Assembly: GCA_021808195.1 (NCBI GenBank)
Contig: JAKBCE010000039.1
Location: forward strand, 1 to 30,185
DNA: 30,185 nucleotides
Source: Pseudomonadota bacterium
GTDB lineage: Bacteria; Pseudomonadota; Gammaproteobacteria; Steroidobacterales; Steroidobacteraceae
Direction of reading: 5' to 3'
The notes below the pieces were generated by a model. The model ran no database searches, was not told where the DNA came from, and saw only the letters and a program-made list of their open reading frames with translations. A program made the translations under genes and the position numbers. Position 1 is the stretch's first letter. Each line of letters opens with the position of its first letter. Positions 2,474-25,504 of the stretch are shown here, piece by piece.

Positions 2474-2490
2474 GCGGAGCCGGCAGAAGC

Positions 2491-4985: not shown

Positions 4986-4992
4986 GGGGCTC

Positions 4993-6066: not shown

Positions 6067-6078
6067 CCGCGATGCTCC

Positions 6079-8610: not shown

Positions 8611-8959
8611 GTGAATGGACGTCGGCTCCGCCGAAAACGCACTCCGGCGCTCGCTGCGTCCGGCCTTGTTCGTCGAGCAATTGTACCAGTCAAAGGAGGA
8701 GAGCGCTCGGGGGGTGGGCCCGGGTCGATGAGATCCAGTACTCACTTTCGGGGACGCCGCGCTTGAGTCGCCGCAACAGCCATTGCGCCGGCCTTCCCTC
8801 GATCAAGACCCGTCGGCTCGAGGAGCGGCAGGGCCCGCGCCGACCGCCCCTCCCCTACGGCCGCAAGTGGGGTCACCGGACAGCCGCCCGGAAAGACGGC
8901 CACTGCCGATGAGCGTTCCTCACTCGGATCATTGCCGGAGTCCGTCGGCTTGCGGCTCG
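8611..8959. promoter_or_regulatory. Leader and promoter region upstream of prsT
   Basis: These 349 bases separate the prsT start from the broken prsR copy, and I see no credible gene. An extended -10 element (TGGTACAAT, minus strand, 8680-8688) would start transcription near 8673, about 60 bases upstream of prsT; it has no convincing -35. I looked for a -24/-12 sigma-54 element on the minus strand and did not find one, so control of this operon by PrsR is not evident. The promoter call is tentative. Confidence 0.35.
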
Positions 8960-9887
8960 TCAGCTCTCCATCGGCCGCTTGGGAGACGGAGTGGCTGTGC
9001 GCTCCATCAGGTCGTAGAGGGTCGGCCGTGTCACACCGAGCAGCTCCGCGGCCTTGGCGATGTTGCCGCCAGCCAGCGCCATTGCGCGCTGCACGGCGGC
9101 GGTCTCGGCCCGCTGCCGGACCTCGCGCAGCGGCAGAATCTCTGCCTCGCCGGCATCCACGGCACCCAGTGACAGATCCGCCGCGGAAATGAGCTCGCCC
9201 TCACACATGATGGCCGCGACGTTGACCCGGTTCTCGAGGTCGCGCACGTTGCCGGGCCAAGGGTAGTGCTCGATCGCGGCAATGGCGTCGGGGGCGAGCC
9301 TCAGCAGCGGCCTGCCGTGGCGCTTGCAGGACTCCTGCAGGAACATAGTGCGCGAGCAGCACCCCATCCGAGCCGCGCTCGCGCAGCGGCGGGATGACGA
9401 CCGACACCTCGCCGCTGCGGTAATAGAGATCCTCGCGGAAGCGGCCCTGCTCGATCTCGGTCTTCAGGTCCCGGTGCGTGGCCGCGATGATGCACACGTC
9501 CACCTGAATCAGCTCGCGACCGCCCAGCCTCTCGATGACACGCTCCTGCAGGAAGCGCAGCAGCTTCGCCTGCAGCGCCAGCGGCATGTCGCCAATCTCA
9601 TCGAGAAACAGCATACCGCCGTTGGCGGTCTCGATCTTGCCGAGCGCCTGTTTCACCGCGCCCGTGAAGGCGCCACGCTCATACCCGAACAGCTCGCTCT
9701 CCAGGAGCGTCTCGGGAATGGCGGCGCAGTTGATGGCCACCCTGGGCTGCGCCGCACGCTCGCTCAGGGCGTGCAGCGCCTCGGCGAGACGATCCTTGCC
9801 GCGCGAGTTGGAATCCGAGCGAACCAGCACACCTCGGATCAGGCAGGACTCAAACACCTGCGGGTGACAATGCGCGCGCAGAACCAC
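8960..9887 (-). pseudogene. Truncated, frameshifted second copy of prsR (sigma-54 response regulator)
   Basis: Two adjacent frames on the minus strand together match the C-terminal two thirds of the intact PrsR at 21975-23339. The upstream piece (9887 to about 9340) carries the AAA+ core: INCAAIPETLLESELFGYERGAFTGA and a Walker B LFLDEIGDM. The match then jumps frame at about 9335-9345, where one extra base turns the expected YLLQE into YVPAG. It continues as FLQESCKRHG...HYPWPGNVRDLENRVN and the C-terminal helix-turn-helix GGNIAKAAELLGVTRPTLYDLME. The receiver domain is missing. The Walker A is ruined: GESGTGK in the intact copy corresponds to SDSNSRGK here. About four of five aligned residues still agree by eye. 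It should not encode a working activator. Confidence 0.9.
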
Positions 9888-9963: not shown

Positions 9964-11385
9964 TCAGCGCGCCGCATCCAACGCGGCAACCAGCGTATCC
10001 ACATCTGCGTCACTCACTTCTCCATGTGTCGCGCAGATCCGCACAACATCCCGTCCCTCAAATTGTGCAACGGCGGCCCATGCCTTTCGCGTCGCCAACA
10101 GACGACATACAATCTCGCGAACGGGAACTGAGCCTGTCGGCGGAAGCGCACAGAGCACTGCTAACCGCGAATCGTTCGCGATTGACCAACCGCACTTGAT
10201 GAGTCCGCTCTTGACCCGTTCGATCACCTGCACTGCTCGCTCGACATGGCGTGCATAGCCGGACCAGCCCGCCGTTGCCAGAGACACAAAGAGCCGCAGA
10301 CCGAGGAAGCGCCGCGACCACTGGACCGTATTGAGGTATGGATCGATGCCCGAGGCGGTCGAGGGCATGAAGTCCGCGCCAACGTGAAAGGCATCGTTCA
10401 GAACCTTCGGGTAACGCGTGATGAACATGCCGCAACCCATCGTCGTGGCGAACCATTTGTGGGCATCGATGGTGATCGAATCGGCCCGTTCGATTCCCGC
10501 CAGCTCACTCCGCAGCCGCTCGGAGCACAGCGCCGCCCCACCCCAGGCCGCATCCACGTGATACCAGACGCCGTCCTCGCGCGCGACCTCCGAGCACGCC
10601 TCGAGCGGATCCACCATGCCGGCACCGGTGGTCCCGGCGGTCGGTGAAATCAACACCGGAACGATGCCCCGGAGTCGATCCTGGCGGACCGTTTCGGCCA
10701 GGGCCGCCGCGTCCATCCGTCCACGGCCATCGGTCGCGACGAGCCGGACCGCCTGCCGGCCGATCCCCGCCTGATGGGCGATCTTGTGCCAGGCCGGCTG
10801 GCACTCCCGCGACGTGTACAGGGCCACCGGCCCCGCGAACGCGCGTACGCCCTCCGTGGCGAACCGCGGATCCGCACGGGTCAGCGCGCAGACGAGGGCC
10901 GTATAGTTCGCTTCCGAGCCGCTGGTGGTGAAGTGCCCCGCCGAGTCCGGCGGCAGCCCCGCGCGCTGCGCCAGGGCGGCGATTACGTGCGCCTCGATGG
11001 CCACCGGCACCGGCGAAGAGCCCGAGCTGGCCAGCTGAGGATTGAAGCAGCCGGCAATCCGGTCGGCGAGCTGCGCCGGGAAGGTCGGCGCGGGATTGAA
11101 CAGCCCGAAATAGCGCGGGTGCGTCATGTGCACCGTGCCATGCTCGAGCTGCGCGATCGTCCAGTCGATCAGCGCACCGGCCGGCTGCGGGGTCGTGAAA
11201 TCGTAGCCGGTGAGTTCCCGGCGGAAGCGCTCCATGTCCAGATCGGGCATGACCGGGCCGCGCTTGACGCGCGCGTCCGCTGCAGCGAGTGCGCGCGTGA
11301 GGTAGTCCTCCAGCTGCTCGCGGACTTCGCGGTCCGGAAACAGCTCGGCCACGGGCGCGGGAATCTCATGCTGCGTCATCGACAC
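9964..11385 (-). CDS. Group II PLP-dependent amino acid decarboxylase
   Basis: This 473-residue pyridoxal-phosphate enzyme belongs to the aromatic-amino-acid/glutamate decarboxylase family. Motifs run in family order: HPRYFGLFNPAP (about 89-100), FTTSGSEANYTAL (about 152-164), a PLP-ring Asp in WYHVDAAWGG (Asp278) and the Schiff-base lysine in SITIDAHKWFATTMGCG (Lys310). The N-terminus has the usual helical lead-in. It is the last gene of the island's minus-strand operon, 9 bases after the MetY-type gene. It probably decarboxylates the amino acid built or activated by this cluster, giving an amine. Within the group, aromatic, glutamate, aspartate and diaminobutyrate decarboxylases look alike at this level, so I do not assign a substrate. 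Confidence 0.85.
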   Translation of the reverse strand: MSMTQHEIPAPVAELFPDREVREQLEDYLTRALAAADARVKRGPVMPDLDMERFRRELTGYDFTTPQPAGALIDWTIAQLEHGTVHMTHPRYFGLFNPAPTFPAQLADRIAGCFNPQLASSGSSPVPVAIEAHVIAALAQRAGLPPDSAGHFTTSGSEANYTALVCALTRADPRFATEGVRAFAGPVALYTSRECQPAWHKIAHQAGIGRQAVRLVATDGRGRMDAAALAETVRQDRLRGIVPVLISPTAGTTGAGMVDPLEACSEVAREDGVWYHVDAAWGGAALCSERLRSELAGIERADSITIDAHKWFATTMGCGMFITRYPKVLNDAFHVGADFMPSTASGIDPYLNTVQWSRRFLGLRLFVSLATAGWSGYARHVERAVQVIERVKSGLIKCGWSIANDSRLAVLCALPPTGSVPVREIVCRLLATRKAWAAVAQFEGRDVVRICATHGEVSDADVDTLVAALDAAR

Positions 11386-11394
11386 GCCTTTGCC

Positions 11395-12675
11395 TCACGG
11401 ACCGACCGCGGCCGCGAGCGCCTGATCGAGGTCGGCCAGGATATCGTCGATGTGCTCGATCCCGACGCTGAGCCGCATCGTTTCCGGACCGATACCTGCC
11501 AGACGCTGCTCCTCGGGAGACATCTGCCGGTGCGTCGTGGACGCCGGATGGCAGGCCAGCGACTTGGCATCCCCGAGGTTCACCAGGCGCTTGAACAGCT
11601 TCAGCGCATCGTAGAAGCGCGTGCCGGCATCGTAGCCGCCGCGCAGCGCAAAGGTCAGCAGCGAGCAGGTCCGGCCTTTGAGGTACTTCCGCACCAGCGG
11701 GTAATGAGGGCTGTCGGGAAAGCCCGCATAGCTCACCGAGGCGACGCGGGGATCGTCGCGCAGGAATTCCGCCACGCGCCGGGCATTGTCCACGTGCCGC
11801 TCCATTCTCAGCGCGACCGTCTCGATGCCCTGCAGCAGCAGGAACGCGCTGAGCGGTGAGAGCACCGAGCCCATGGTCCGCTGGAAGACGCTCCGGCAGC
11901 GGCCGACATAGGCAGCCCGCCCGTAATGCGCCGTGTAGACCAGTCCGTGGTAGGACTCATCGGGACGAGTCAGCATCGGAAAGCGTTCCGCATGCGTCTG
12001 CCAAGGGAAGTTCCCGCTGTCGACAATCACCCCGCCCAGGGTCGTGCCGTGACCGCCGAGGAACTTGGTCAGGGAATGCACGACGATGTCCGCCCCGTAC
12101 TCGAACGGTCGCACCAGCAGCGGGGTCGGCACGGTATTGTCGACGATCAGGGGAACCCCGGCGCGGTGCGCCACCGCGGCCAGCGCCTCGAGATCACACA
12201 CGTTGCCCGCCGGGTTGCCGACCATTTCGCAGTACACGGCCCGGGTGTTCTCGTCGATCAGCGCGGCCAGCGATTCGGGGCGGTCGTCCTGGGCAAAGCG
12301 CGCGCCGATCCCCAGCTGCGGCAGGATATGCGCAAAGAGCGTGTGCGTGGTGCCGTAGAGCTGGGGCACGGACACGATATTGCGGCCCGCCTGCGTGACG
12401 GCGAGGATGGCGTAATGCAACGCCGCCTGTCCCGAGCTCACGCACAGCGCATCGATCCCGCCCTCGAGCTGCGCCATGCGCTTCTCGAGCACCTGAGTGG
12501 TGGGATTGGAGATGCGCGTATACCGGAACCCGTCCACCTCGAGATTGAACAGCGCGGCGCCGTGCTCGGCGCTGTCGAACGAATACGCCACGGTCTGGTA
12601 GATGGGGACCGCCACCGCTTTGGTGGTCGGATCGGCGTCGAAGCCGCCGTGCAGGGCTATGGTCTCGGGTCGCAC
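11395..12675 (-). CDS. MetY-type O-acylhomoserine sulfhydrylase-family PLP enzyme
   Basis: This Cys/Met-metabolism PLP enzyme is close to O-acetylhomoserine aminocarboxypropyltransferase (MetY). The family replaces the acyloxy group of an O-acylhomoserine with a thiol or other nucleophile. I prefer the GTG at 12675 (MRPETIALHGG), which matches the usual family N-terminus and follows a GTGAGG ribosome site. An ATG at 12702 would overlap the SDR gene by 20 bases. Visible blocks are YTRISNPTT, SSGQAAL, LYGTTHTLF, VDNTVPTPLL, the lysine motif VVHSLTKFLGGHGT (Lys204) and KLVNLGDAKSL-like FKRLVNLGDAKSLACHPASTTH. About 426 residues is a normal length. A MetA-type acyltransferase at 18780 could supply its substrate. 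The nucleophile it uses is unknown; rhizobitoxine synthesis shows that this fold can use nucleophiles other than sulfide. Confidence 0.88.
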   Translation of the reverse strand: MRPETIALHGGFDADPTTKAVAVPIYQTVAYSFDSAEHGAALFNLEVDGFRYTRISNPTTQVLEKRMAQLEGGIDALCVSSGQAALHYAILAVTQAGRNIVSVPQLYGTTHTLFAHILPQLGIGARFAQDDRPESLAALIDENTRAVYCEMVGNPAGNVCDLEALAAVAHRAGVPLIVDNTVPTPLLVRPFEYGADIVVHSLTKFLGGHGTTLGGVIVDSGNFPWQTHAERFPMLTRPDESYHGLVYTAHYGRAAYVGRCRSVFQRTMGSVLSPLSAFLLLQGIETVALRMERHVDNARRVAEFLRDDPRVASVSYAGFPDSPHYPLVRKYLKGRTCSLLTFALRGGYDAGTRFYDALKLFKRLVNLGDAKSLACHPASTTHRQMSPEEQRLAGIGPETMRLSVGIEHIDDILADLDQALAAAVGP

Positions 12676-12682
12676 TCTGGCC

Positions 12683-13402
12683 TCACGCGGTGTTGCCGGC
12701 ATCCACGGTCAGTGTGGTGCCAGTGATGTTGTGGGCGGCGTCGCTCAACAGATATTCAACCGCGCCGGCGATGTCCGCCGGTTCGGCCATGCGCCGCAGC
12801 GCGCTGCGGCGCACGATCTGTTCCCGGGCTTGCGCGCCGAGCTCGTGGGTCATCGCGGTATCCACGAACCCCGGGGCAACGGAATTCACCGTGATCCCGA
12901 GCGGCCCGACCTCCCGCGCCAGCGAGCGCGTAAAGCCTTCCAGCGACGCCTTAGTCGCCGAATACGCGGCCAGGGCCTTGTAGCCGCTCTGGGCAACGAT
13001 GCTGGAGATGCTGACGATGCGCCCGCAGCCCGCGCTCATCATGGAACGCAGCACGTACTTGGTCAGCAGGATGGGCGCGAGCGTATTGAGGCGCACCAGC
13101 GCCTCGATGTCCGCATCGCGCATCATGGACAGCAGTCCGCCGGTGCCGAGACCGGCATTGTTGACGAGCCCGTAGAACGGCCCAAACTCGCGGCGCAGAC
13201 GGCCAACCTGTTCACCGATGCCGGCCGTGTCGGCGAGATCGCACGCGCGGAAATGCAGCTCGGGCTGCCCGGCTCGCGCGGTGCGCAGCTCAGCGCTCTC
13301 GGAGCGCGCCAGGGCGATCACCCGATAGCCGCCGAGTGCCAGCCGCGCCGCAATGGCGAGCCCGAGTCCACGGCTGCCGCCGCTCACGAGCACGCTACGC
13401 AT
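12683..13402 (-). CDS. FabG-like short-chain dehydrogenase/reductase
   Basis: This classical NAD(P)-dependent SDR has 239 residues. The cofactor glycine motif SGGSRGLG is at residues 7-14, followed by NNAG, the catalytic Ser in SISSIVAQSG and the Tyr-Lys pair in AYSATKAS. PGFVDTAM is the normal loop after the active site. Closest in feel to 3-oxoacyl-ACP reductases, it may reduce a beta-keto or imine group on a carrier-protein-bound intermediate. It overlaps the upstream ligase by 8 bases and so belongs to the same operon. Substrate not assigned. Confidence 0.88.
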   Translation of the reverse strand: MRSVLVSGGSRGLGLAIAARLALGGYRVIALARSESAELRTARAGQPELHFRACDLADTAGIGEQVGRLRREFGPFYGLVNNAGLGTGGLLSMMRDADIEALVRLNTLAPILLTKYVLRSMMSAGCGRIVSISSIVAQSGYKALAAYSATKASLEGFTRSLAREVGPLGITVNSVAPGFVDTAMTHELGAQAREQIVRRSALRRMAEPADIAGAVEYLLSDAAHNITGTTLTVDAGNTA

Positions 13403-14765
13403 TGGGACGCACCAGCTTGCCCGACGGCGAAACCTCGAGCACCGGCACGAAGTGGATCAAGGCCGGCACCTTGTGCGCCGCGAGGCTGGCGCGACAGAGA
13501 CCCAGAATCTCCTGACGAATACCCGCCTCCTCAGCGGCGCCTTGCGACGCGTCGCGCTCGAGGACCACGTCGGCGGTCACCACGGCACCGGTAATGGGGC
13601 TACGGCGCGGCTTGACCAGGGACATGCGCACCGCGGGATGCGCATTGATCACCGCCTCCACCTCCTCAGGATGCACCTTCAGGCCCCCGACGTTGATGAT
13701 GCCGCCGCTGCGGCCCATGAAATGGTACCGGCCATCGCGCAGCTCGAGCCGGTCGCCGGTGTTCACGAATCCGTCGGCATCCTTCAGCGGCGGCACGTCA
13801 CCGAGGTAGCCCAGCGCATTGCCGGGCGATCTGAGCCTGAGCGACCCGCGACTGACATCGAGCTGCACGCCGTGCTGGGATTCATCGACGAGTGACGCCG
13901 GAAAGCCGCTGAGTCCGTCCTCCACCTCAAATCCCACACCCGCTTCGGTGGACGCAAATGCATGTGCCACGCGCGCATGCGGGAATGCCGTGCGCAGGCT
14001 CTCCAGAATCCCCTGATCGGCGATCTCGCCGGACAGCCGCACGTAGGCGGGCGTGAAGCCTCCCGCGGCTCCGCTCATGAGCGCCTTTCTCCAGTGGGAC
14101 GGGGTTCCCGAAATGTGCGTGACCCCCGCGGCACCGGCGCGCGCCAGAAACGATTCGGTGGACTCGTTCGGACTCGACAATACCAGCGATCCACCGCACA
14201 GCGCCCGCAGGAAGATCTGCAGGCCCCCGTACCGGCGGATGTCATAGAAGGTGCTCCAGGTCGTCGGCGCGCCGGCAGCGTCGATGAAGTTCAGCAGGCT
14301 GGCCAGGGTGTGGCGCACCAGCTTGGGTGCACCGCTCGTGCCGGAGGTCAGCAGAATCCACTCCGTGTCGTACTCCGGATGCCGCGTGACTCCGCAGGGC
14401 TGCGGGTCCGCAAGCGCCTCGACCCACAGATGCGCCGCGACATCCTGCGGCGGCGGGCCGCTGCCGGCGTCCCCGACCCAGGCGTCGCACTCGGCCGTGC
14501 GGGCAATGTACGGCATGTGCTCGGGCGCAATACCGCCCGGGCAGAGCACCATCCGCCGGGCAACGCCGTCGAGCTCGACTAGGGCCACAGCGGCGGTCAA
14601 TTGATCCTGGACCGCCACCACGACACTCCGCCCGCGGAAAGCGTCAATTTTCCCCGCCAGACAGGATGCGTGTTCCAGAGCCTGTAGTTCTACGGTCCGC
14701 TGCGCGTCACGGAGCGTACCCACCGGCCGTCCGCGCTCACGCAACAGCGATGCCCACAGGGTCAT
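13395..14765 (-). CDS. AMP-forming acyl/aminoacyl ligase (ANL superfamily)
   Basis: This 456-residue adenylating enzyme is short for the family, with a compact N-terminal region. Core motifs are present: P-loop LLTSGTSGAPK (138-148), ASTEAG, GFVNTGD and the hinge GRSGGIINVGGLKVHPEEVE, and the C-terminal catalytic lysine in SPSGKLVR. It begins directly at the stop of the small acyl carrier protein gene (4-base ATGA overlap). That coupling suggests it loads an acyl or aryl acid onto that carrier protein. No transmembrane or condensation domain is fused to it. The acid it activates cannot be deduced. Confidence 0.87.
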   Translation of the reverse strand: MTLWASLLRERGRPVGTLRDAQRTVELQALEHASCLAGKIDAFRGRSVVVAVQDQLTAAVALVELDGVARRMVLCPGGIAPEHMPYIARTAECDAWVGDAGSGPPPQDVAAHLWVEALADPQPCGVTRHPEYDTEWILLTSGTSGAPKLVRHTLASLLNFIDAAGAPTTWSTFYDIRRYGGLQIFLRALCGGSLVLSSPNESTESFLARAGAAGVTHISGTPSHWRKALMSGAAGGFTPAYVRLSGEIADQGILESLRTAFPHARVAHAFASTEAGVGFEVEDGLSGFPASLVDESQHGVQLDVSRGSLRLRSPGNALGYLGDVPPLKDADGFVNTGDRLELRDGRYHFMGRSGGIINVGGLKVHPEEVEAVINAHPAVRMSLVKPRRSPITGAVVTADVVLERDASQGAAEEAGIRQEILGLCRASLAAHKVPALIHFVPVLEVSPSGKLVRPNA

Positions 14766-15007
14766 GAGACCTTCGCGTGGGACTCGTAGAGCTGCACAAA
14801 ATCGCCGAACGTCACGGGAAAATGCTCGGCGGTATCGAACGGATTGAAGCCCAGGGTCTCCTCGAGTCGGGCAGCAATGAGCGCGAAGCTCAGCGAATCG
14901 AGTCCGCTGTCGAGCAATTTCAGATCATCGTTCAGCGGCACCAGCTCTCGCTGCTGCTCCTGGGCAATTTCCGCGAACAGGGCGGTTATCGTCGAGCGTA
15001 CGGTCAT
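14762..15007 (-). CDS. Acyl carrier protein 1 (phosphopantetheine-binding)
   Basis: This free-standing 81-residue carrier protein has the phosphopantetheine attachment motif LLDSGLDSLSF (Ser38) at the start of helix 2. The first helix carries ITALFAEIAQEQQ. An AGGAG ribosome site lies 7 bases before the ATG at 15007. It is coupled by a 4-base overlap to the AMP-forming ligase. A gap of 129 bases separates it from the upstream SnoaL-like gene, so it may also have its own promoter. The natural partner set is that ligase, the SDR and possibly the amino acid:carrier-protein ligase upstream. Confidence 0.92.
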   Translation of the reverse strand: MTVRSTITALFAEIAQEQQRELVPLNDDLKLLDSGLDSLSFALIAARLEETLGFNPFDTAEHFPVTFGDFVQLYESHAKVS

Positions 15008-15136
15008 GCCTGCTCTCCTGCTGCGATCGCTCGTGTCACTGGGTACATCAGCGGGCTCCTATTGCGCAATCTTGGTCTGTTGTTCACTTACTGCTTGCCT
15101 TGCCGGCAAGCTCGCACCGGCACGCAGCCCCGCGCC
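15008..15136. promoter_or_regulatory. Intra-operon gap with two perfect short palindromes
   Basis: This is the only sizeable gap inside the island's minus-strand operon. It contains the 10-base palindromes ATTGCGCAAT (15061-15070) and TTGCCGGCAA (15100-15109). Neither is followed by a T-run on the minus strand, so a terminator is unlikely. They could be operator half-sites of an internal promoter for the carrier-protein gene. Short palindromes of this size also occur by chance. Confidence 0.25.
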
Positions 15137-15535
15137 TCATACGGGCGCGAAAAACTCCACGTAGGACGCGATCCGATCACCGCGCACCTCGATGACGTCC
15201 ACCAGTTCAGTGGCAATGCGTGCGCCGGTGACCCGCGAATGGATCACGGCGCGCCAATGAACCGCCGCGCGGTTGCCTTCGATGACCCGAGCCAGCACCG
15301 CATACTCGGAGAGACTGAAGGACTTCAGCAGCACCGCGAGCCAGCCACGGATCTGCGCCGCATTGCACACAGCGATGGCGATCGGCTTGCCGTCACTAGA
15401 GCCGGATATCCGAAACTGCGCCTGCTCGGCAAAAAGCCCGGCCAGCGGATCGAGCTCACCGTCAAGCCGTGCCGCGTACAGCACCTCCAGCACCTGCTCG
15501 ATGCGCGCACGATCGCTATCCACAACGTCTGTCAT
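15137..15535 (-). CDS. SnoaL/NTF2-fold small protein
   Basis: This 132-residue protein has the pattern of the SnoaL-like/NTF2 superfamily: an N-terminal helix (RARIEQVLEVLYAARLDGE), LAGLFAEQAQFRISG, then alternating beta strands (YAVLARVIEGNRAAVHWRAVIHSRVTG and ELVDVIEVRGDRIASYVEFF). The fold occurs in cyclases, isomerases, dehydratases and ligand-binding proteins, so the role is open. It follows the alpha/beta hydrolase gene by 8 bases and is therefore in the operon. A role on a carrier-bound or released intermediate is plausible but not shown. Confidence 0.75.
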   Translation of the reverse strand: MTDVVDSDRARIEQVLEVLYAARLDGELDPLAGLFAEQAQFRISGSSDGKPIAIAVCNAAQIRGWLAVLLKSFSLSEYAVLARVIEGNRAAVHWRAVIHSRVTGARIATELVDVIEVRGDRIASYVEFFAPV

Positions 15536-15543
15536 AGGTTCGA

Positions 15544-16479
15544 TCAGGCTAGGAGGGCGCGGATATCCGCGCCGATGGTTTGGTACGCCTCTGCCGCATG
15601 GGGGATCACCATGCCGAGTCCATAGAATAAATGAATCATCCCGGCGTGACAGCGATAGCGGGTCGGCACGCCAGCCTCCTGCAACTGTCCGGCGTACGCG
15701 CTGCCGTCGTCGCGCACCGGGTCACACTCGGCGGTGTGGATGCAGGCCGGCGGAAGATCCGCAGTGGCTTGCGCGCGTAGCGGCGAGACCCGGGGGTCGG
15801 CCGGATCCGTCCGCGGAGGCAGATAGTGAGCCACATCGTGCTCGAGTGTGCCCCGGTCGAGCAGATCGCCCTGATCATACGGCCGCCGGTCAATCGTCCC
15901 CGGCCGGTAATCGAGGATGGGACAGAGCAGGACCTGCACCGCGAAGCGAGGTCCCCGGCCGGCGAGACGGTGCCGGCAGGCCGCAACGGCGAGCGCCGCG
16001 CCCGCCGAGTCCCCGGACACGCCCAATCGCTCGCGCTCGACCCCCAGGTCCGCAGCGTGATCGAACACCCAGTCGCACGCCGCGCAAGCGTCCTCGATGG
16101 CGGCGGGAAACCGTGCCTCCGGTGCCAAACGATAATCGACGGAAATCACCCGGCAACCGCTGGCGTTCGCCAGCGCGCGCGCGACGCCATCGTGCGTCTC
16201 GAGGCTGCCGGCCACGAATCCGCCGCCGTGGAAGTACAGCAGTGCCGCAGGCGTCTCTGCGGCCGCGTTGAGCGGCGTGTACGTGCGCAGGCGCAGCGCG
16301 CCGTCGGGCCCGGGCACGCTGCACTCGGCGACGCGCCCAACCGGCTGGGGCTCCCCTCCCAGACTCAACAGGCGCTGCAGCGCCTCTCGCCGTCCAGGCA
16401 CCGTGAGCGCTCCTGCGCTGCGCGCCTCGCCCAGCGACAGTCGGGCAAGAAATCGCCGCACATGGGGATCCAACGTCAT
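15544..16479 (-). CDS. Hormone-sensitive-lipase-type alpha/beta hydrolase
   Basis: This 311-residue esterase of the HSL (GDSAG) family starts at MTLDPHVRRFL. A longer reading frame upstream would run over the amino acid:carrier-protein ligase gene and is out of family. The oxyanion motif HGGGF is at 84-88. The catalytic triad is visible: Ser158 in GDSAGA, Asp253 in ECDPVRDDG and His283 in GMIHLFYG. No signal peptide, so it is cytoplasmic. Located between the amino acid:carrier-protein ligase and the carrier-protein genes, it may act as a thioesterase or esterase that releases or edits a product. That is inference from position. Confidence 0.88.
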   Translation of the reverse strand: MTLDPHVRRFLARLSLGEARSAGALTVPGRREALQRLLSLGGEPQPVGRVAECSVPGPDGALRLRTYTPLNAAAETPAALLYFHGGGFVAGSLETHDGVARALANASGCRVISVDYRLAPEARFPAAIEDACAACDWVFDHAADLGVERERLGVSGDSAGAALAVAACRHRLAGRGPRFAVQVLLCPILDYRPGTIDRRPYDQGDLLDRGTLEHDVAHYLPPRTDPADPRVSPLRAQATADLPPACIHTAECDPVRDDGSAYAGQLQEAGVPTRYRCHAGMIHLFYGLGMVIPHAAEAYQTIGADIRALLA

Positions 16480-16492
16480 GAGCCAACGTGCT

Positions 16493-17458
16493 TCAGATCT
16501 GCAACGCCCGGCGGACCGTGGCGGGCCAGCCGGCCGGATCGAGTCCGTGGACGCAGAACATCGCCACCGCCAGCCGATCCATCCCGAACGCGACGCAACC
16601 GCTGTGCGCGGCCTCGCCATCCACACTGCTCAAGCCCCATACCGAACCGAAGTGGTCCTGGTGATAATTGAAACTCATGCAGGCGGTAGGCTTCATGTCC
16701 GGTGCATAGGGAACGAGGAACTCGAATTTCAGCGACTGCTGCCGCTGGCTCACCGCCATGACCTGCCCCACGCGCCCGAAGAACGGGTCGCTGGCGACAT
16801 CCATTTGACCGGGCAAGCCGAGTTCGGCCGCTATCGACTGCGCGCGCGCCATCCATTGCTCCCGGAACCCCTGCACGTCCCCGGCAGAGCCGATGCGTAC
16901 GTATTCGCGCATCCGGAACGACTGCAGTCGATCGAGTGCCGCCGACGGCTCGTGGCGGAAGCAATCGGCCGCGACATCGAAGATCAAACCACCCGGCGGC
17001 ACGGCACCCCGGCCTGCGACCATCGGATAGACCGGATAGCACGCCGCCGGCGACAGCACGAGATCCGATGCCGCCAGAGAATCCGTCCAGCTCCCGCCGT
17101 GCTCATGGGTGTTGGCCGCCGCCAGGATCTGCGCTTCCGTACCGTGCAGCGCACAGACGCACCCGAGCAGATTGGGGAAACTGCCCAGGTAGCCGGACTT
17201 CTCGACCTGTGCCCGACTCATCACCGGTGGAAAGCGCAGCACTTCCGCACGCGGATCCCGATGCCGCGTGATGAGCGTAGCGAGCCGCTGCAGCACATTT
17301 TCATATCGCTCCGTGCGCGCATAGACGCCCTCGACCCCCATCGGCCGGAAGAGTGCCTGCCGCAGCGCCTCGAAGGCATCGACGCGGGAGGTCTCAGCGC
17401 AGTTCACGTTGACGGCGCTCATGCCGCAAACCAGATCATGATTCACCGCTGAGGACAC
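16493..17458 (-). CDS. Amino acid:[carrier protein] ligase (class II aminoacyl-tRNA-synthetase-like)
   Basis: This 321-residue homologue of the SerRS-type catalytic core lacks a tRNA-binding arm. The described family activates small amino acids such as glycine or alanine with ATP and transfers them to the phosphopantetheine of a small carrier protein. Family blocks include FPPVMSRAQVEKSGYLGSFPNLLG (about 76-99), the motif-2 segment DCFRHEPSAALDRLQSFRMREYVRIG (about 165-190), HQDHFG (266-271) and the motif-3 segment HSGCVAFGMDRLAVAMF (285-301). The zinc ligands of the family, Cys-Glu-Cys, fit Cys140, Glu185 and Cys288. The start is unsure: GTG at 17458 overlaps the dehydrogenase gene by 23 bases, while ATG at 17422 would not overlap. 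Two carrier-protein genes occur in the same island. The amino acid used is not known. Confidence 0.87.
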   Translation of the reverse strand: MSSAVNHDLVCGMSAVNVNCAETSRVDAFEALRQALFRPMGVEGVYARTERYENVLQRLATLITRHRDPRAEVLRFPPVMSRAQVEKSGYLGSFPNLLGCVCALHGTEAQILAAANTHEHGGSWTDSLAASDLVLSPAACYPVYPMVAGRGAVPPGGLIFDVAADCFRHEPSAALDRLQSFRMREYVRIGSAGDVQGFREQWMARAQSIAAELGLPGQMDVASDPFFGRVGQVMAVSQRQQSLKFEFLVPYAPDMKPTACMSFNYHQDHFGSVWGLSSVDGEAAHSGCVAFGMDRLAVAMFCVHGLDPAGWPATVRRALQI

Positions 17459-18650
17459 CCGGGATCGGGGTCATCATGGCCGTCAGGGTGAAATTTGCCA
17501 GAATACGATCGTTATTGATCATCAGCGGCGAGGAAAGCACGTCGCGCAGATGCCGCTCGACACTGAACGGACTGTCGCAGCGGTATCCCGACAGGCCGCA
17601 CACCCGCAGCGCGGCCAGCACGGTGGAAACCGCCAATTCCGATGCCTGTACCTTCGTCAAGGTGATCTGAGACTGGAAGTCGACCGCTTCGAGTGCTTTC
17701 GGATCATCCATGATGCTCTCGTATCGCCGCAGCGAGTCGCTCAGCATGCCGCGCAGGGTCTTGAGCGTGGAGACGACTTCCGCGAGGCGGGGTGCGCCCG
17801 GAGGCAACGTTCCGCCACTCTTGCGGACCGCCGTCCGCACGAAGGACTGGGCTCGCGCGGCCGCACCGGAAGCAATTCCCGCCCAGACCGAACCCCACAG
17901 CAGGTGCGCGAAGGGCACCATGGTGCGGGCATGAATCGACGCATAGGGCTCTGAGACGATCTGTTCGGGTGAGCCGTTGGCCCGCAACAGGTATCCTTCG
18001 CTGCACGTGCCTCGCATGCCCAGCGTCTGCCAGCCTTGTATGCGGCTCAGGGTGTAATCGTCCTTCAGAAACACGATGAGCACCTGATCCGATGCAGTTG
18101 CATCCGCTGCACGGCGCGCCGTCGTCACGATGCCATCGGCATTTTCACCATAGGAAATCACCGTTGCCTGCCGCTCCAGTTCGATCCGGCCGTCCCGGTG
18201 GGTCACAGCCGCCTCGCTCGAGCGGACATTGCCGCCAGCCTGTCCTTCCGTGGTGGAAGACGCCAGGAGCAGTTGCTCTGCGCAGAGTCGGCGCAGCACC
18301 GCATCAATCGCCGCATTGCCGTGCCGATGGCGCGCCAGACACGCCACCTTGACCTGATGCATGGCATAGATCATGCCGGTCGCGGAGCAGTTCTGCGCCA
18401 GGTGGAAACACACGTCCGCGACCTGAGAGACGCTCGCCTCCTCTCCGCCCAGTTCAGCGGGCACGAGAATACCGAGAAGCCGTTGGTCCCGTACGGCATC
18501 GAATGCTTCGCTCGGAAATCGCGGCTGCGCGTCAACCTGTGCGGCATGAGCCGCGGCCACGGCGCCCGCCGCCCTGGCCCGCTCCACCAGCGCCAACCCA
18601 GGGCACGCCGCGGAATGTTCGGCTGCCGGATTCAAGGATGACGAGTTCAC
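17436..18650 (-). CDS. Acyl-CoA-dehydrogenase-fold flavoenzyme
   Basis: This protein of about 404 residues has the acyl-CoA dehydrogenase architecture: an N-terminal helical part (LLGILVPAELGGEEASVSQVADVC), a middle beta domain (LLASSTTEGQAGGNVRSSEAAV, TLGMRGTCSEGYLL) and a C-terminal four-helix part ending VCGLSGYRCDSPFSVERHLRDVLSSPLMINND. I prefer a GTG start at 18650 (VNSSSLNPAAEHS), preceded by AGAGG 8 bases upstream. An in-frame ATG at 18680 has no ribosome site and lies on a palindrome. It heads the operon, overlapping the amino acid:carrier-protein ligase. By analogy with prolyl-carrier-protein oxidases it may desaturate an aminoacyl or acyl thioester on a carrier protein. A plain fatty acyl-CoA substrate is the alternative. 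Confidence 0.85.
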   Translation of the reverse strand: MNSSSLNPAAEHSAACPGLALVERARAAGAVAAAHAAQVDAQPRFPSEAFDAVRDQRLLGILVPAELGGEEASVSQVADVCFHLAQNCSATGMIYAMHQVKVACLARHRHGNAAIDAVLRRLCAEQLLLASSTTEGQAGGNVRSSEAAVTHRDGRIELERQATVISYGENADGIVTTARRAADATASDQVLIVFLKDDYTLSRIQGWQTLGMRGTCSEGYLLRANGSPEQIVSEPYASIHARTMVPFAHLLWGSVWAGIASGAAARAQSFVRTAVRKSGGTLPPGAPRLAEVVSTLKTLRGMLSDSLRRYESIMDDPKALEAVDFQSQITLTKVQASELAVSTVLAALRVCGLSGYRCDSPFSVERHLRDVLSSPLMINNDRILANFTLTAMMTPIPGVLSGES

Positions 18651-18779
18651 GATTTCAGCCTCTACGGGAATTATTCCCATTTGGAAAGGTTATCATACGG
18701 CCAAAAGCGGGGCAGAGAGTCGGGCAAGCTTCACAATCTCCCGACCCCACTGCCGCGCAACAATATTGAGCATTAAGGC
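18651..18779. promoter_or_regulatory. Divergent promoter region of the island with palindrome GGGAATTATTCCC
   Basis: This segment separates the two divergent operons. A perfect 13-base palindrome, GGGAATTATTCCC, lies at 18666-18678. On the minus strand a -10-like TATGAT (18692-18697) would start RNA near 18685, putting the palindrome just downstream of the start, as expected for a repressor operator, if translation begins at 18650. No good -35 is visible for either direction, so activation by a regulator is possible. No regulator gene lies in the island itself. Confidence 0.4.
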
Positions 18780-19757
18780 ATGCCGCTCGAGTTTGAAGTA
18801 CCAACTGCAGCGAGTCCGCCCGCCGACGGCCTGGTCGTTGCCCTGGTCAACAACATGCCGGACGCGGCGCTCGAAGCGACCGAGAACCAGTTCGCAGCCC
18901 TGCTCGCAGCTGCCGCAGGCCGGTTCCGAATCCGGCTGCGTCCGACTTGCCTGCCCGAGGTGCCGCGAGAGCCCGAAGCGCTCCAGTCCATCGCAGCGCG
19001 CTACTGGCCGCTCGAGAGCGTCCTGGACGCCCTCCCGGACGCGATCATCGTCACCGGCGCCGAGCCGCGTGCGGCCACACTGGAGGAAGAGCCGTATTGG
19101 CGGAGCCTCGTCCGGCTACTCGATTGGACGCAGCGCTACGCGCGATCGAGCGTCTGGTCGTGCCTCGCAGCGCACGCGGCCGTGCAGGCGCTCGACGGTA
19201 TCCGCCGGCGCCGGCTGCCCCGGAAGCGCTTCGGCGTGTTTGAACATGACCGCACCGCAGACGTGCCGCTGCTGGCCAAGGTGGATGCGCCGCTGGCCAC
19301 CCCGCATTCACGCTGGAACGAGCTCTCCGTGGCGGAATTGCGCGCAGCCGGTTACACCATTGCAAGCGCTTCGCCCGAGAACGGTGTCGACGTCTTTGTC
19401 CGCCAGGACCGCGGGCTGCTGGTGGGTTTCCAGGGGCATCCGGAATACGAGCCCGCGACGCTTCTCAAGGAGTATCGGCGGGACGTGGCGCGCTACCTGC
19501 GCGGGGACTGTGCCGACTGGCCTTCGATGCCGAGCGGATACTTCTCGGGCGAGGCACTCGAAATGCTGCGGGCGTTCCGCCAGCGTGCCGAGCCCGCACG
19601 AGATCCTGATCTGCTCGAGCATTTTCCGATGCGGACACTGGCGGCCGGGCTTCAGGCGCGCTGGCGGCCCGCCGCAACGCAGATCTACCGCAACTGGATC
19701 GAGTACCTGGCCGGGACGAGAACCGGTGCGCACTCGCGCCGTCGAGTCCAGGTATGA
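18780..19757 (+). CDS. MetA-type homoserine O-acyltransferase (glutamine-amidotransferase-like fold)
   Basis: This 325-residue protein is of the MetA family, which transfers succinyl or acetyl from CoA to the hydroxyl of L-homoserine. It shows ALVNNMPDAALEATENQF, VTGAEPRAATLEEEPYW, the catalytic cysteine in SVWSCLAAHAA (Cys128), LPRKRFGVFEH, PHSRWNEL and GFQGHPEYEP with His220 and Glu222. The Cys-His-Glu spacing agrees closely with Escherichia coli MetA. The text around the cysteine differs from the usual ICWGAQA, which may mean a changed acyl donor. It is the first gene of the plus-strand operon, 7 bases before a carrier-protein gene. Together with the MetY-type enzyme at 11395 it could form a homoserine side-chain substitution pathway. 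Ordinary methionine synthesis is the alternative. Confidence 0.87.
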   Translation: MPLEFEVPTAASPPADGLVVALVNNMPDAALEATENQFAALLAAAAGRFRIRLRPTCLPEVPREPEALQSIAARYWPLESVLDALPDAIIVTGAEPRAATLEEEPYWRSLVRLLDWTQRYARSSVWSCLAAHAAVQALDGIRRRRLPRKRFGVFEHDRTADVPLLAKVDAPLATPHSRWNELSVAELRAAGYTIASASPENGVDVFVRQDRGLLVGFQGHPEYEPATLLKEYRRDVARYLRGDCADWPSMPSGYFSGEALEMLRAFRQRAEPARDPDLLEHFPMRTLAAGLQARWRPAATQIYRNWIEYLAGTRTGAHSRRRVQV

Positions 19758-19764
19758 TTCCACC

Positions 19765-20076
19765 ATGAACGCCAGTGAGACGCAGCTGTCCTCGTTGACC
19801 CCACGCGAGCGCCTGCTCGGTCTGGTCCGCAAGGTCCTCGGGTCGTCCGCCGCGAACCGGCCCCTGCCCATCGATGCGCGGCTCTCGGAACTCGGCGTCA
19901 GCTCCATCAAGATGGTCAGTCTGATGCTCGCCATCGAAACCGAGTTCGATCTGACCATTCCGCAGAGCGAAATCACCCCTGAGAACTTCGCATCCCTGGC
20001 GACGGTCGAAGCGCTGATCAACAAGATGGGCGGCATCGCCGGGGAACCGATGGCATCGGGCGGGACGTCCATCTGA
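19765..20076 (+). CDS. Acyl carrier protein 2
   Basis: This 103-residue carrier protein starts with ATG at 19765, 7 bases after the MetA-type gene. The phosphopantetheine site is in LSELGVSSIKMVSLML, with Ser47 as the attachment residue. The common DSL is replaced by SSI, as in some dedicated carrier proteins. The third-helix region reads IPQSEITPENFASLATVEALIN. Its place between a MetA-type acyltransferase and an acyl-CoA synthetase suggests that it carries the acyl group handled by one or both. It differs clearly from the 81-residue carrier protein of the opposite operon. Confidence 0.9.
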   Translation: MNASETQLSSLTPRERLLGLVRKVLGSSAANRPLPIDARLSELGVSSIKMVSLMLAIETEFDLTIPQSEITPENFASLATVEALINKMGGIAGEPMASGGTSI

Positions 20077-20113
20077 TTCTGCGCGGCATCGCTCACGAGG
20101 TCCGTACCGAATC

Positions 20114-21925
20114 GTGTCAGCCGAGGACCCGTCCGAGCCGCACACCGCCCAGAGCGCCGGAACCTCGGCGCTGAAGTCGTGGGTTCGCGCCCTGGAGCGC
20201 ACGGCATCGATCGGCCACGATCCGTACGCGACCTTTCCGGTCCTGATCGGCGAACTGGCAGCGCGAATGCAGTCCGCCCCTGCACTCGCCTCGCAGGAGC
20301 AGGTGCTCACCTATCGCTCACTGGCCGAGCGCGCGAATCGATACGCGCGCTGGGCGATCGGTCAAGGAATCGCGCGCGGGGCGACGGTCTGTCTGCTGCT
20401 CAGGAACTGCCCCGACTATCTTGCGATCTGGCTGGGATTGACCCGTGCAGGGGTCACCGTCGCCCTGCTCAATACCCACCTGACCGGCGAGTCCCTGGCG
20501 CACTCCATCCGCGTGGCCAACGCCAGTGCGGTCATCTCCGGTGTCGGCTTGCTCGAGGCCGTGCGTTCGACACGCGCTCTGCTCAATGCGCCGATCCCCT
20601 GCTGGGCGCATGGCGGCGACGATGGGGACCTGCCGCGTATCGACCGGGCCATCGCCGCGCTCTCCTGCGGCACTTTGGAGCCGACGGAATGCGCATTGCC
20701 CGTGCTCTCGGACCATGCACTCTATATCTATACGTCGGGCACGACGGGACTCCCGAAGGCGGCAGTCGTCACGCACCTGCGGCTGATGCGCTGGATCCAA
20801 TGGTTCAGCGGCATGATGAACATGACCTCCGCGGACCGGATGTACGACTGCCTGCCCCTCTATCACAGCGTCGGCGGTGTCGTCGCCACCGGCGCCACCC
20901 TGGCCGCGGGCGGCACAGTCGTGCTGCGCGAGAAATTCTCCGCCAGCCGCTTCTGGCAGGACGTCACCGAACAGGGCTGCACGGTGTTCCAATACATCGG
21001 TGAGCTGTGCCGGTACCTGCTGGCCCAGCCTCAGCAAGACGCCGAGCGCACCCATCGGCTGCGCCTGGCATGCGGAAACGGCATGCAGGGCGAAGTCTGG
21101 TCGGCATTCCAGCGGCGGTTCCGCATTCCGCAGATTCTCGAGTATTACGCCTCCACCGAAGGCAACGTCTCACTCTATAACTGCGAGGGACGGCCCGGAT
21201 CCGTCGGCCGTATCCCGCCGTTTCTCTCTCACCGTTATCCAGTGGCCGTGGTGCGCTCTGATCCCGACACCGGCGAGCCGCTTCGCGACGCCGCCGGACG
21301 ATGCATGGCGTGCGGGCCGGATGAACCCGGTGAGGTACTCGGCAAGATCATGGACGGCCCCGGACACGCGGGCACGCGCTTCGAGGGCTACTCCGACCCT
21401 GACGCCACGCGCAGCAAAGTACTGTCCGATGTGTTCACGCCGGGCGACGCCTGGTACCGGACCGGGGACTTGATGCGGCGCGATCCGCAGGGCTTCTTCT
21501 ATTTCGTGGACCGGATCGGCGACACGTTCCGCTGGCAGGGCGAGAACGTCTCGACCACCGAGGTCACGGCGGCCCTGCTGCAATGTAGCGGCGTGGCCGA
21601 TGCAGCCGTGTACGGAGTGCGTATTCCCGGCACCGAAGGCCGCGCAGGCATGGCCGCCCTCGTCGTCGATGACACGTTCGATCTGGACGCGTTCCGACGC
21701 GAATGCGTCGCGCGCCTGCCCAAATACGCCCGCCCCGTCTTTGTCAGAATCGTACCCGGCCTCGACAGAACCGGAACGTTCAAGCTGCAAAAGAGCACCC
21801 TCATCGCAGACGGCTACGATCCGGGCCGTGTTGCCGATGCGCTCTACGTCGACCAGATTCATCGAGGGCGGTACGTCGCGCTGGACAGGCCGCTCTTCGA
21901 GAAGCTGCAAGCTGGACTGGAGTAA
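20114..21925 (+). CDS. FATP-type (very-long-chain) acyl-CoA synthetase
   Basis: This 603-residue AMP-forming ligase is closest to the fatty-acid-transport-protein/very-long-chain acyl-CoA synthetase group. Motifs are YIYTSGTTGLPK (204-215), LPLYHSVGG, LEYYASTEGNVSLYN, WYRTGDLMRRDPQGFFYFVDRIGDTFRWQGENVSTTEV and the C-terminal catalytic stretch GTFKLQKSTL. Start is a GTG at 20114, with no strong ribosome site. It is 37 bases after acyl carrier protein 2 and in the same operon. It may activate a fatty acid for that carrier protein or for CoA. Chain length preference cannot be read off. It ends 49 bases from the convergent prsR. Confidence 0.9.
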   Translation: MSAEDPSEPHTAQSAGTSALKSWVRALERTASIGHDPYATFPVLIGELAARMQSAPALASQEQVLTYRSLAERANRYARWAIGQGIARGATVCLLLRNCPDYLAIWLGLTRAGVTVALLNTHLTGESLAHSIRVANASAVISGVGLLEAVRSTRALLNAPIPCWAHGGDDGDLPRIDRAIAALSCGTLEPTECALPVLSDHALYIYTSGTTGLPKAAVVTHLRLMRWIQWFSGMMNMTSADRMYDCLPLYHSVGGVVATGATLAAGGTVVLREKFSASRFWQDVTEQGCTVFQYIGELCRYLLAQPQQDAERTHRLRLACGNGMQGEVWSAFQRRFRIPQILEYYASTEGNVSLYNCEGRPGSVGRIPPFLSHRYPVAVVRSDPDTGEPLRDAAGRCMACGPDEPGEVLGKIMDGPGHAGTRFEGYSDPDATRSKVLSDVFTPGDAWYRTGDLMRRDPQGFFYFVDRIGDTFRWQGENVSTTEVTAALLQCSGVADAAVYGVRIPGTEGRAGMAALVVDDTFDLDAFRRECVARLPKYARPVFVRIVPGLDRTGTFKLQKSTLIADGYDPGRVADALYVDQIHRGRYVALDRPLFEKLQAGLE

Positions 21926-21974: not shown

Positions 21975-23339
21975 CTACTTCTGTTCCGCCGTTCCCGTCC
22001 GCTCCATCAAGTCGTAGAGCGTCGGACGGGTGATGCCGAGCAGCTCGGCGGCTTTGGAGATGTTCCCGCCGGTCATTGCCAGGGCGCGTTGAATGGCTTC
22101 CGTCTCGGCGCGCTGACGGACTTCGCGCAGCGGCAGGATCGCCGCGCCGTCTCCGGGCTCCTCGAGGGAGAGGTCTTCGGCGGTGACCCGCTTGTCCTCG
22201 GCCATGATGGCCGCGGCGTTCACCCGGTTCTCGAGTTCGCGCACGTTGCCGGGCCACGGATAGTGCTCGATGGCGGCGATGGCATCGGGCGCGAGTTTCA
22301 TCTGTGCCTTGCCGTGGCGCTTGCACGCTTCCTGCAGCAGGTAATTGGCGATCAGCACCGCATCGGAGCCGCGCTCGCGCAGCGGCGGGATGTTCACCGT
22401 GACCTCGCTGATGCGGTAGAAGAGGTCCTCGCGGAAGCGCTTCTCGGCCATCGCCGCCTTCAGGTCCTGGTGGGTGGCGACGATGATGCGCACGTCCACC
22501 GGAATCAGATCGCGACCGCCCACCCGCTCGATGACCCGCTCCTGTAGGAAGCGCAGCAGCTTCGCCTGCAGGGCGAGCGGCATGTCGCCGATCTCATCGA
22601 GAAACAGGGTGCCGCCGTCGGCGGTCTCGATCTTGCCGCGGGTCCGCTTCACCGCACCGGTGAACGCGCCCCGCTCGTAGCCGAACAGCTCGCTCTCGAG
22701 CAGGTTCTCCGGAATGGCCGCGCAGTTGATCGCCACCATGGATCGGGCGGCACGGTCACTCAGCCCGTGCAGCGCCTGTGCGAGGCGCTCCTTGCCGGTA
22801 CCGCTCTCCCCGAGCAGCAGCACGGTGGCCTGGGTCGGCGCCAGCTTCCGCACCAGACGGCAGACGTTCACCATCGGATCGCTGGCCGCGATGACCCCCT
22901 CGAGCGTGCTCGCCGGGCGGCTCTCGGCGAGCCGGCGATTCTCCGCTTCGAGTTCCTGGATACGCCGCGCCCGGTCGATGATCAGGGAGAGCACTTGCAG
23001 GTCGACCGGCTTCTGGCAGAAATCGTAGGCGCCGAGCCGGATGGCGCGCAGCGCATGCTCGCGCCCCTCGCGCCCCGTGACCACGATGATCTTGGTCGCC
23101 GGCGCCAGGCGCAGCAGCTCGGTGATGGTCGCAAAGCCCTCTTCCACCCCGTCCGGATCGGGCGGCAGGCCGAGATCCTGCAGCACGATGGGCGGCTCGA
23201 ACCGTCGGGCCGCGGCGAGCGCCTCCTCGCGCATGGCTGCGCATTCGACCTCGAACTCATCCAGCGCCCACTTCAGCTGGCGCTGCAATCCCGGATCGTC
23301 CTCGACGATCAGCAGTCTAGTCTTCGGATTGGAACTCAT
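21975..23339 (-). CDS. prsR: PEP-CTERM-box response regulator PrsR (sigma-54 activator)
   Basis: This 454-residue NtrC-type regulator pairs with PrsK. The receiver domain (about 1-125) has acidic residues in IVEDD (13-15), the phosphorylated Asp55 in LQDLGLPPDPDG and Lys110 in QKPVD. The AAA+ domain has Walker A GESGTGKE (177-184), the sigma-54-contacting GAFTGA (224-229) and Walker B LFLDEIGDM. The C-terminal helix-turn-helix reads GGNISKAAELLGITRPTLYDLME. The LQDLGLPPDPDGVEEG text around the phospho-site is typical of PrsR. It overlaps the end of prsK by 23 bases. A target is likely the -24/-12 promoter of the PEP-CTERM gene at 27934. A decayed second copy lies at 8960-9887, on the far side of the island. 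Confidence 0.95.
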   Translation of the reverse strand: MSSNPKTRLLIVEDDPGLQRQLKWALDEFEVECAAMREEALAAARRFEPPIVLQDLGLPPDPDGVEEGFATITELLRLAPATKIIVVTGREGREHALRAIRLGAYDFCQKPVDLQVLSLIIDRARRIQELEAENRRLAESRPASTLEGVIAASDPMVNVCRLVRKLAPTQATVLLLGESGTGKERLAQALHGLSDRAARSMVAINCAAIPENLLESELFGYERGAFTGAVKRTRGKIETADGGTLFLDEIGDMPLALQAKLLRFLQERVIERVGGRDLIPVDVRIIVATHQDLKAAMAEKRFREDLFYRISEVTVNIPPLRERGSDAVLIANYLLQEACKRHGKAQMKLAPDAIAAIEHYPWPGNVRELENRVNAAAIMAEDKRVTAEDLSLEEPGDGAAILPLREVRQRAETEAIQRALAMTGGNISKAAELLGITRPTLYDLMERTGTAEQK

Positions 23340-25425: not shown

Positions 25426-25504
25426 GGCCCGCCCGGTACGAGCAGCAGACGGGCTCGCCGGTCGCTCGGCTGGGCCGAACCCCAGGCACGACCCGAACAA
25501 GTCA

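Follow-up and report, generated by a model that had tools for sequence, protein, structure and literature searches.

A conserved and uncharacterised twelve-gene biosynthetic cluster around an amino acid:carrier protein ligase in a gammaproteobacterium

Gene content and recurrence of the island

The window analysed here—the whole stretch of 30,185 nucleotides of contig JAKBCE010000039.1 (assembly GCA_021808195.1)—contains, at positions 9964–21925, an island of 12 genes that is a real, conserved, and uncharacterised biosynthetic cluster. A first-pass annotation made from the sequence alone had described two divergent operons at that place; all 12 frames are indeed open, nine on the minus and three on the plus strand, and profile searches upheld every one of the family assignments. 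The features, with the names used below, are as follows:

9964–11385, minus: DEC, group II pyridoxal-phosphate (PLP)-dependent decarboxylase (PF00282, E = 1.4e-54)
11395–12702, minus: METY, O-acylhomoserine gamma-substitution enzyme of the MetY type (TIGR01326, 599.1 bits; cut-off 495.1)
12683–13402, minus: SDR, FabG-like short-chain reductase (PF13561/PF00106)
13395–14765, minus: LIG1, AMP-forming acyl/amino-acyl ligase paired with ACP1 (PF00501 and PF13193)
14762–15007, minus: ACP1, free carrier protein 1 (PF00550)
15137–15535, minus: SNOAL, SnoaL-like protein (PF12680, E = 3.9e-10)
15544–16479, minus: HSL, hormone-sensitive-lipase-type hydrolase (PF07859, E = 8.6e-65)
16493–17422, minus: AACPL, amino acid:carrier protein ligase resembling class II aminoacyl-tRNA synthetases (PRK07080/NF005479, 440.7 bits; cut-off 357)
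17436–18680, minus: ACAD, flavoenzyme of the acyl-CoA-dehydrogenase fold without the usual Glu base (PF02771)
18681–18779: divergent intergenic region of 99 bases
18780–19757, plus: META, homoserine O-acyltransferase family, MetA/HTS (PF04204, E = 2.4e-60; NF003776, 369 bits; cut-off 358)
19765–20076, plus: ACP2, free carrier protein 2 (PF00550, E = 2.2e-08)
20114–21925, plus: FACL, ligase of the long-chain acyl-CoA synthetase type (PRK08279/NF006134, 736 bits; cut-off 625)

The tight packing that had been claimed is present: with the starts as chosen here, eight of the ten within-operon junctions overlap or are at most 15 bases wide, the exceptions being the 129 bases between ACP1 and SNOAL and the 37 bases between ACP2 and FACL. 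The starts of HSL (about 16479) and AACPL (about 17422) both probably lie downstream of the first GTG, that of HSL having been set from the translation at the ATG that follows an over-long GTG frame; and a plus-strand frame of 436 amino acids at 18766–20076 was discarded as misleading, that stretch being occupied by META, in another frame, and by ACP2, whose best NCBIfam match is the carrier PRK07081 (41.5 bits, under the cut-off of 72). Family profile searches detected no condensation or ketosynthase domain in the 12 proteins, in keeping with the earlier statement that no megasynthase of the nonribosomal peptide synthetase (NRPS) or polyketide synthase (PKS) type is encoded. No sigma-70-like site was found at 18500–18900 around the divergent gap, and the left end of the island has two terminator-like sites about it (0.6 expected). 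The boundaries that had been drawn likewise stand, these 12 genes recurring together in other genomes.

A ligase-based genome scan, from which the best 80 of 311 loci encoding an AACPL relative were kept, supplied most of the material for comparison. The 30 loci compared comprise that of the window, 24 found with AACPL (L004–L027), and five found via DEC (L124–L128). Genes were counted where they matched at E ≤ 1e-4 with an identity of 33% or more, and weaker copies thus figure as absent. All 12 genes are present in eight of these loci and 11 in four more, over spans of 10–13 kb and with protein identities of 36–91%, the gene order being often changed among the recurring clusters and loci from the Gemmatimonadota being included. 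The co-occurrence that the first-pass annotation had proposed to look for is thus found, while the scattering in relatives that it had named as telling against the island is contradicted by genes that recur linked, across phyla and in new orders. Gene by gene, ACP2 is present in 26 of the 30 loci, HSL in 24, METY in 22, LIG1 and ACP1 in 21 each, SDR in 20, DEC, SNOAL, and FACL in 18 each, and META in 15, and many of the absences may be contig ends; the presence of AACPL and ACAD in all 30 is partly a matter of choice, the loci having been picked via AACPL (24) or DEC (5). At least six of the 12 genes, in several orders, occur in 21 of the 24 closest loci (L004–L027), and of 26 cluster genomes just two, G013 and G019, lack a LIG1 match anywhere, the other 24 having one. 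Two genomes contain a second cluster: that of L006 (G003) harbors a diverged copy (L105, 2285–12919), and G018 carries both L023 and L025.

The genes therefore recur as one linked unit, with the catalytic residues intact where checked. The phosphopantetheine-type serine is kept in all copies of ACP2 (18 of 18) and ACP1 (17 of 17), as is the Ser-Tyr-Lys set of SDR (17 of 17); LIG1 retains the P-loop Lys in 17 of 17 sequences and the C-terminal Lys in 16, with one gap; and HSL the catalytic Ser and Asp in 21 of 21 and the His in 20, again with one gap. The pairwise distances of nine tested genes correlate (r from 0.52 to 0.91, at most two of 500 label shuffles reaching as high), which result fits co-inheritance.

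A search based on DEC gave matches at E ≤ 1e-120 in 13 of 246 genomes of one order (12 of 246 in a near-identical sample with another centre), and in one of 369 genomes at the class level, namely G001 itself. METY adjoins DEC in seven of the 13 matches within the order; two of these seven genomes had already supplied L004 and L007, and the other five, not found before, hold 8 to 12 cluster genes each, with AACPL and ACAD in all five. The remaining six matches (50–56% identity) have different surroundings as far as these were read, in 4.4-kb loci and, for five of them, also in wider stretches, one of these five stretches being just 4.5 kb long. The outcome of this search points to a coherent cluster of rare occurrence, and to relatives of DEC outside it as well.

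METY was found in all 21 cluster genomes searched, at 66–91% identity (the match in G009 being partial). A tree built from 37 proteins unites the 28 cluster METYs in a single clade (support 100/100), outside which fall nine second MetY copies sampled in the same genomes; since the cluster label was set by at least 64% identity to the METY of the window, clade and label are partly dependent, and the tree leaves out METY pieces shorter than 330 residues, among them those of G012 and G009. Three Gemmatimonadota copies are nested among the proteobacterial ones, which position suggests inter-phylum transfer, with some of the forks there poorly supported and several inner forks unstarred.

The ligase–carrier–flavoenzyme core

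AACPL (309 amino acids) is 66% identical to the Bradyrhizobium ligase Bll0957 (PDB 3mey; 194 of 294 aligned residues), whose substrate we take to be glycine; its residues 14–307 align with that protein and represent a catalytic core without a tRNA-binding domain. C128, E173, and C276, presumably the positions of the Cys-Glu-Cys zinc ligands, are invariant in 22 sequences. According to a review, the amino acids that ligases of this kind attach to the phosphopantetheine of carrier proteins are Gly, Ala, or Ser (PMC9437257). By this likeness AACPL would charge a carrier protein with glycine, possibly with alanine. On a Priestia megaterium plasmid (L094, 10130–18677) a holo-ACP synthase, carrier, ACAD, ligase, ATP-grasp protein, and hydrolase are accompanied by an alanine permease and a racemase, a set that may represent the core in an alanine-using form; the proximity of those two genes keeps alanine in play as a substrate of AACPL.

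The predicted model of ACAD (pLDDT, the model-confidence score, 88.7) has the acyl-CoA-dehydrogenase fold. The classical Glu base, whose places we take to be residue 376 in medium-chain acyl-CoA dehydrogenase (MCAD) and 254 in isovaleryl-CoA dehydrogenase (IVD), is absent by alignment: I388 stands at the former place (Ile in 38 of 40 copies) and A258 at the latter, which position reads by eye as A, S, or T in a 38-row alignment. A His located exactly at the IVD place had been considered and was dropped, the re-read alignments putting His259 one residue further on; that residue is kept in 39 of 40 aligned copies, the exception being a Streptomyces copy in which many of the positions checked are different and a Glu seems to stand close to its usual place. 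The loss of the classical base predicts a new kind of flavin chemistry for amino acids bound to carriers. If the amino acid is glycine, which has no beta carbon, the oxidation by ACAD would fall at the C–N bond or at the nitrogen.

That ACAD might instead be a flavin monooxygenase—an N-oxygenase, for example—acting on the carrier-bound amino acid is an alternative that we consider rather unlikely, although both Glu-base positions are lost, His259 is retained almost throughout, and DszC is the top Foldseek match, with nitrososynthases also in the list. In a fold comparison meant to decide between the two, the scores of dehydrogenases and oxygenases tie, with ColB1 (7xp7) among the tied matches. 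ColB1 and CaeB1, of the collismycin and caerulomycin pathways, constitute a precedent for an ACAD-type flavoenzyme that oxidises a carrier-bound amino acid; CaeB1 acts on the cysteinyl form and needs E372 (PMC8149447). The CaeB1 case involves an NRPS module and recruitment by a Ct domain, whereas the carrier of the island is free and the corresponding Glu is absent.

The carrier–ACAD–AACPL trio stands alone in loci of Azospirillum, Mycetohabitans, and Priestia, and the ACAD–AACPL pair in rhizobial loci, with the same genes in one order; being found without the rest of the cluster, the core is evidently a module. In 56 further loci (L028–L083) ACAD is followed by AACPL; some of these loci also have a carrier, and all other matches to cluster genes are weak. 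No match to METY, DEC, LIG1, or ACP1 was found in L001–L003 and L028–L083, where a few have weak FACL or META matches. A genome-wide search, covering METY alone, of 30 genomes with a core-only locus gave no MetY above 52% identity (29 matched at E ≤ 1e-100, and one had no match).

Among known systems, one likeness is that of AACPL and ACAD to Bll0957 and bll0958, the latter a neighbouring acyl-CoA dehydrogenase gene (acd); the two bear consecutive numbers and stand together in one table (PMC10888616). In the literature searched, which consisted of openly licensed papers, we found no pathway for that pair or for this type of amino acid:carrier protein ligase, no paper on a cluster such as the present one, and no characterised pathway that the island matches, a match of this last kind being one of the outcomes that the first-pass annotation had named as refuting its proposal. 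The ligase type is structurally known, and the cluster could give this orphan carrier-protein ligase family a biological role; its occurrence in a compact and recurring 12-gene unit, with a defined carrier, oxidase, and partners, makes that role directly testable. The aminomalonyl-ACP extender pathway of the zwittermicin type also employs an amino acid on a free carrier and an ACAD-family oxidase, with a 3-hydroxyacyl-CoA dehydrogenase as partner. A Streptomyces plasmid locus (L095, 8427–15556) has such a set—3-hydroxyacyl-CoA dehydrogenase, carrier, ACAD, and an AACPL-like protein—among PKS and NRPS genes. For the island we rejected this pathway, there being no 3-hydroxyacyl-CoA dehydrogenase domain among the 12 proteins. 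The Streptomyces ACAD is of another kind.

The homoserine branch and decarboxylation

META and METY appear to be a dedicated pair that forms a homoserine branch. The Cys, His, and Glu of META are kept in 17 of 17 sequences. In MetA enzymes the acyl donor is set by one residue, Glu specifying acetyl and Gly succinyl; the corresponding column of META, in the 17 sequences, holds R in ten, K in two, L in two, and M, I, and H in one each. In METY the PLP Lys, Tyr116, His385, Ser388, and Arg410 are kept in 23 of 23 sequences, and Tyr61 and Arg63 in 22, with one gap; against PRK06084, the equivalog model of the housekeeping MetY, it scores 647 bits, under the cut-off of 790. The window contains a second homoserine acyltransferase family in the form of a MetX-like frame at 4996–6066 (PRK08775, 287.6 bits; cut-off 296), which lies within the exopolysaccharide locus described below and overlaps its chain-length gene.

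Fub7, CndF, and LolC share with METY the MetY-family fold and the vinylglycine-ketimine logic, and Fub7 chains are among the structure matches of METY. The related gamma-substituting enzymes Fub7, CndF, AnkD, and Mur24 accept a variety of nucleophiles in specialised pathways, and the nucleophile of LolC is believed to be proline (PMC10367076). The island METY is nearer to the bacterial O-acetylhomoserine sulfhydrylases (474 bits, versus 424 for Fub7); and this proximity, together with the retained catalytic residues, speaks for a different route, in which METY makes homocysteine and DEC converts this compound, or a derivative of it, to a thiol amine (homocysteamine, for instance) for subsequent acylation. 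We hold that route to be possible, though doubtful: at least ten of the 21 cluster genomes have a second MetY (47–62% identity), and none of the cluster genes was recognised as one for sulfur relay or sulfide generation. If the preferred reading of a dedicated branch is right, META, METY, and DEC may constitute a bacterial route to C–C or C–N bonds on homoserine.

The PLP Lys of DEC and the His before it are kept in 14 of 14 aligned copies, and the nearest NCBIfam models, the diaminobutyrate and aspartate decarboxylases, are far under cut-off. DEC is present in 13 of the 21 cluster genomes. A class IV aminotransferase occurs in five, never alongside DEC, and the same five have a close thiamine-diphosphate enzyme (at least 59% identity), of which five more hold a relative at 48–53%; G008, G013, and G020 have neither DEC nor the aminotransferase. 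The thiamine-diphosphate enzyme and aminotransferase genes adjoin ACP1 in L019, and the aminotransferase lies near METY in L084, L087, and L090. These five genomes being of Caulobacter/Caulobacterales plus one Bradyrhizobium metagenome-assembled genome (MAG), the aminotransferase/thiamine-diphosphate version may count as one evolutionary contrast and not five. The two versions fit a METY product that loses its carboxylate, either directly or via a keto acid. In another stretch (L096, 6362–11618), from a genome whose ligase cluster lies elsewhere, a thiamine-diphosphate enzyme, an HSL hydrolase, a second MetY (54%), and an AraC regulator form a mini-cluster.

Proposed pathway and setting of the island

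The reading that we prefer, with the chances for and against it evenly balanced, is that the island encodes a dedicated, megasynthase-free carrier-protein pathway to an amino-acid-derived amine or amide. In that pathway AACPL would charge glycine, or possibly alanine, onto ACP2 (step 1), and the aminoacyl thioester would be oxidised by ACAD (step 2). META would O-acylate homoserine, whose gamma-acyloxy group METY would exchange, through a vinylglycine ketimine, for a nucleophile of the pathway, with formation of a new amino acid (step 3); and DEC would remove the carboxylate of that product, an operation whose equivalent may in one group be carried out by the aminotransferase and thiamine-diphosphate enzyme (step 4). 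LIG1 would load a further carboxylate on ACP1 for reduction by SDR, and FACL would activate a fatty acid (step 5), after which the product would be released or tailored by HSL and SNOAL (step 6). The first-pass annotation had proposed an amino acid charged onto a carrier, oxidised or reduced there, joined to an acyl group or a homoserine-derived unit, and decarboxylated: the homoserine-derived unit is now refined to a dedicated MetA/MetY pair and the ligase is narrowed by its 66% identity to Bll0957, and the search for the decarboxylase found no DEC in eight of the 21 genomes. A more elaborate version, which we regard as improbable, would be a dispersed assembly line, in which glycyl-ACP charged by AACPL is oxidised by the base-less flavoenzyme to a reactive C2 unit, coupled to the homoserine-derived gamma-carbon unit from MetA/MetY, and decarboxylated to give an alkaloid-like or amide substituent of an exopolysaccharide.

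Several points weigh against the pathway so conceived. Its chemistry, the order of its steps, and its product are all inferred; METY, in the residues checked, resembles an ordinary O-acetylhomoserine sulfhydrylase, and the switch residue of META fits neither known acyl-donor type. As ACAD lacks the Glu that CaeB1 requires, that precedent may not carry over, and the chemistry probably differs. Concerning the cluster itself, many of the loci are MAG fragments, and L012, L015, and L017, among the 24 closest, have three or four genes, on short pieces or at contig ends; the distance correlations are also predicted by plain vertical descent. No exporter or resistance gene was seen among the families common to at least three of 25 loci, a set of shared open reading frame (ORF) families that is partly annotated; besides the 12 genes, the families so shared were a GNAT protein, a thiamine-diphosphate enzyme, and a tyrosine-kinase-type gene, and many that were taken as antisense ORFs, as judged from few coordinates and without annotation.

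The destination of the product might be a different one, with steps 1 to 5 shared: an unusual acyl or aminoacyl group that decorates an exopolysaccharide or some other glycan of the cell surface, and not a free small molecule, which possibility we rate below the preferred reading and as less than probable. The island of the window lies inside an XrtA/PEP-CTERM exopolysaccharide locus (818–8745 and 21975–28754), and polysaccharide-assembly or glycosyltransferase genes flank six of the 12 loci that hold 11 or all 12 genes (the window, L004, L007, L025, L124, and L128); G016 and G015 also have a Wzz gene, at 12.5 kb from AACPL and at about 8 kb from METY, respectively. The core trio is followed by DUF1839, glycosidase, and hydrolase genes in annotated plasmid loci, two of Azospirillum and one of Mycetohabitans, DUF1839 having been suggested from genomic contexts to act on cell-wall glycans (PMC10318531). 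Triads in the order of ACP1–LIG1–SDR occur near glycosyltransferase genes in plasmid loci of Azospirillum brasilense Sp7 (plasmid p3), Qingshengfaniella, and Haematobacter, LIG1 being 37–43% identical in the 14 plasmid matches listed; unlike the island, these triads keep company with glycosyltransferase, pseudaminic acid, or flagellin genes (one of the three is beside flagellin and pseudaminic acid genes), with no MetY-type or AACPL gene in the annotated stretch. On the other side, the conserved 12 include no glycosyltransferase, and the flanks of L009, L010, L022, L125, and L126, scanned over one to four ORFs per locus, yielded no polysaccharide-assembly or glycosyltransferase gene (L027 being left out). 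Moreover, in 14 of the 18 genomes where Wzz was matched, no match comes within 15 kb of any cluster gene that was located. G004 belongs to these 14, although its cluster in L007 adjoins genes for a chain-length protein, an exosortase, and a kinase that resemble their counterparts in the window. Exopolysaccharide loci are in addition hot spots of gene turnover. The glycan association is thus suggestive. Hardly credible, finally, is a chance neighbourhood of methionine, fatty-acid, and other genes without a common pathway: each family is common by itself, but the recurrence of the same 12 across phyla with changed order already contradicts such a notion.

In the window the exosortase, tyrosine autokinase, chain-length determinant, and PrsT genes of the XrtA locus are to the left of the island and PrsR and PrsK to the right, the locus also containing an NHL-repeat protein and a PEP-CTERM protein; FACL scores 138.9 bits against the XrtA-associated ligase TIGR03098, under the cut-off of 592.35. 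An IS5-type transposase-like frame occurs at 28817–29497 (71 bits, under the model cut-off of 140). Immediately to the left of the island, in the stretch 8978–9887, there is a decayed PrsR-like remnant in two frames (8978–9830), 72–75% identical to the intact PrsR (21975–23339); the position of the island between two diverged prsR copies gives a hint at the mode of its arrival.

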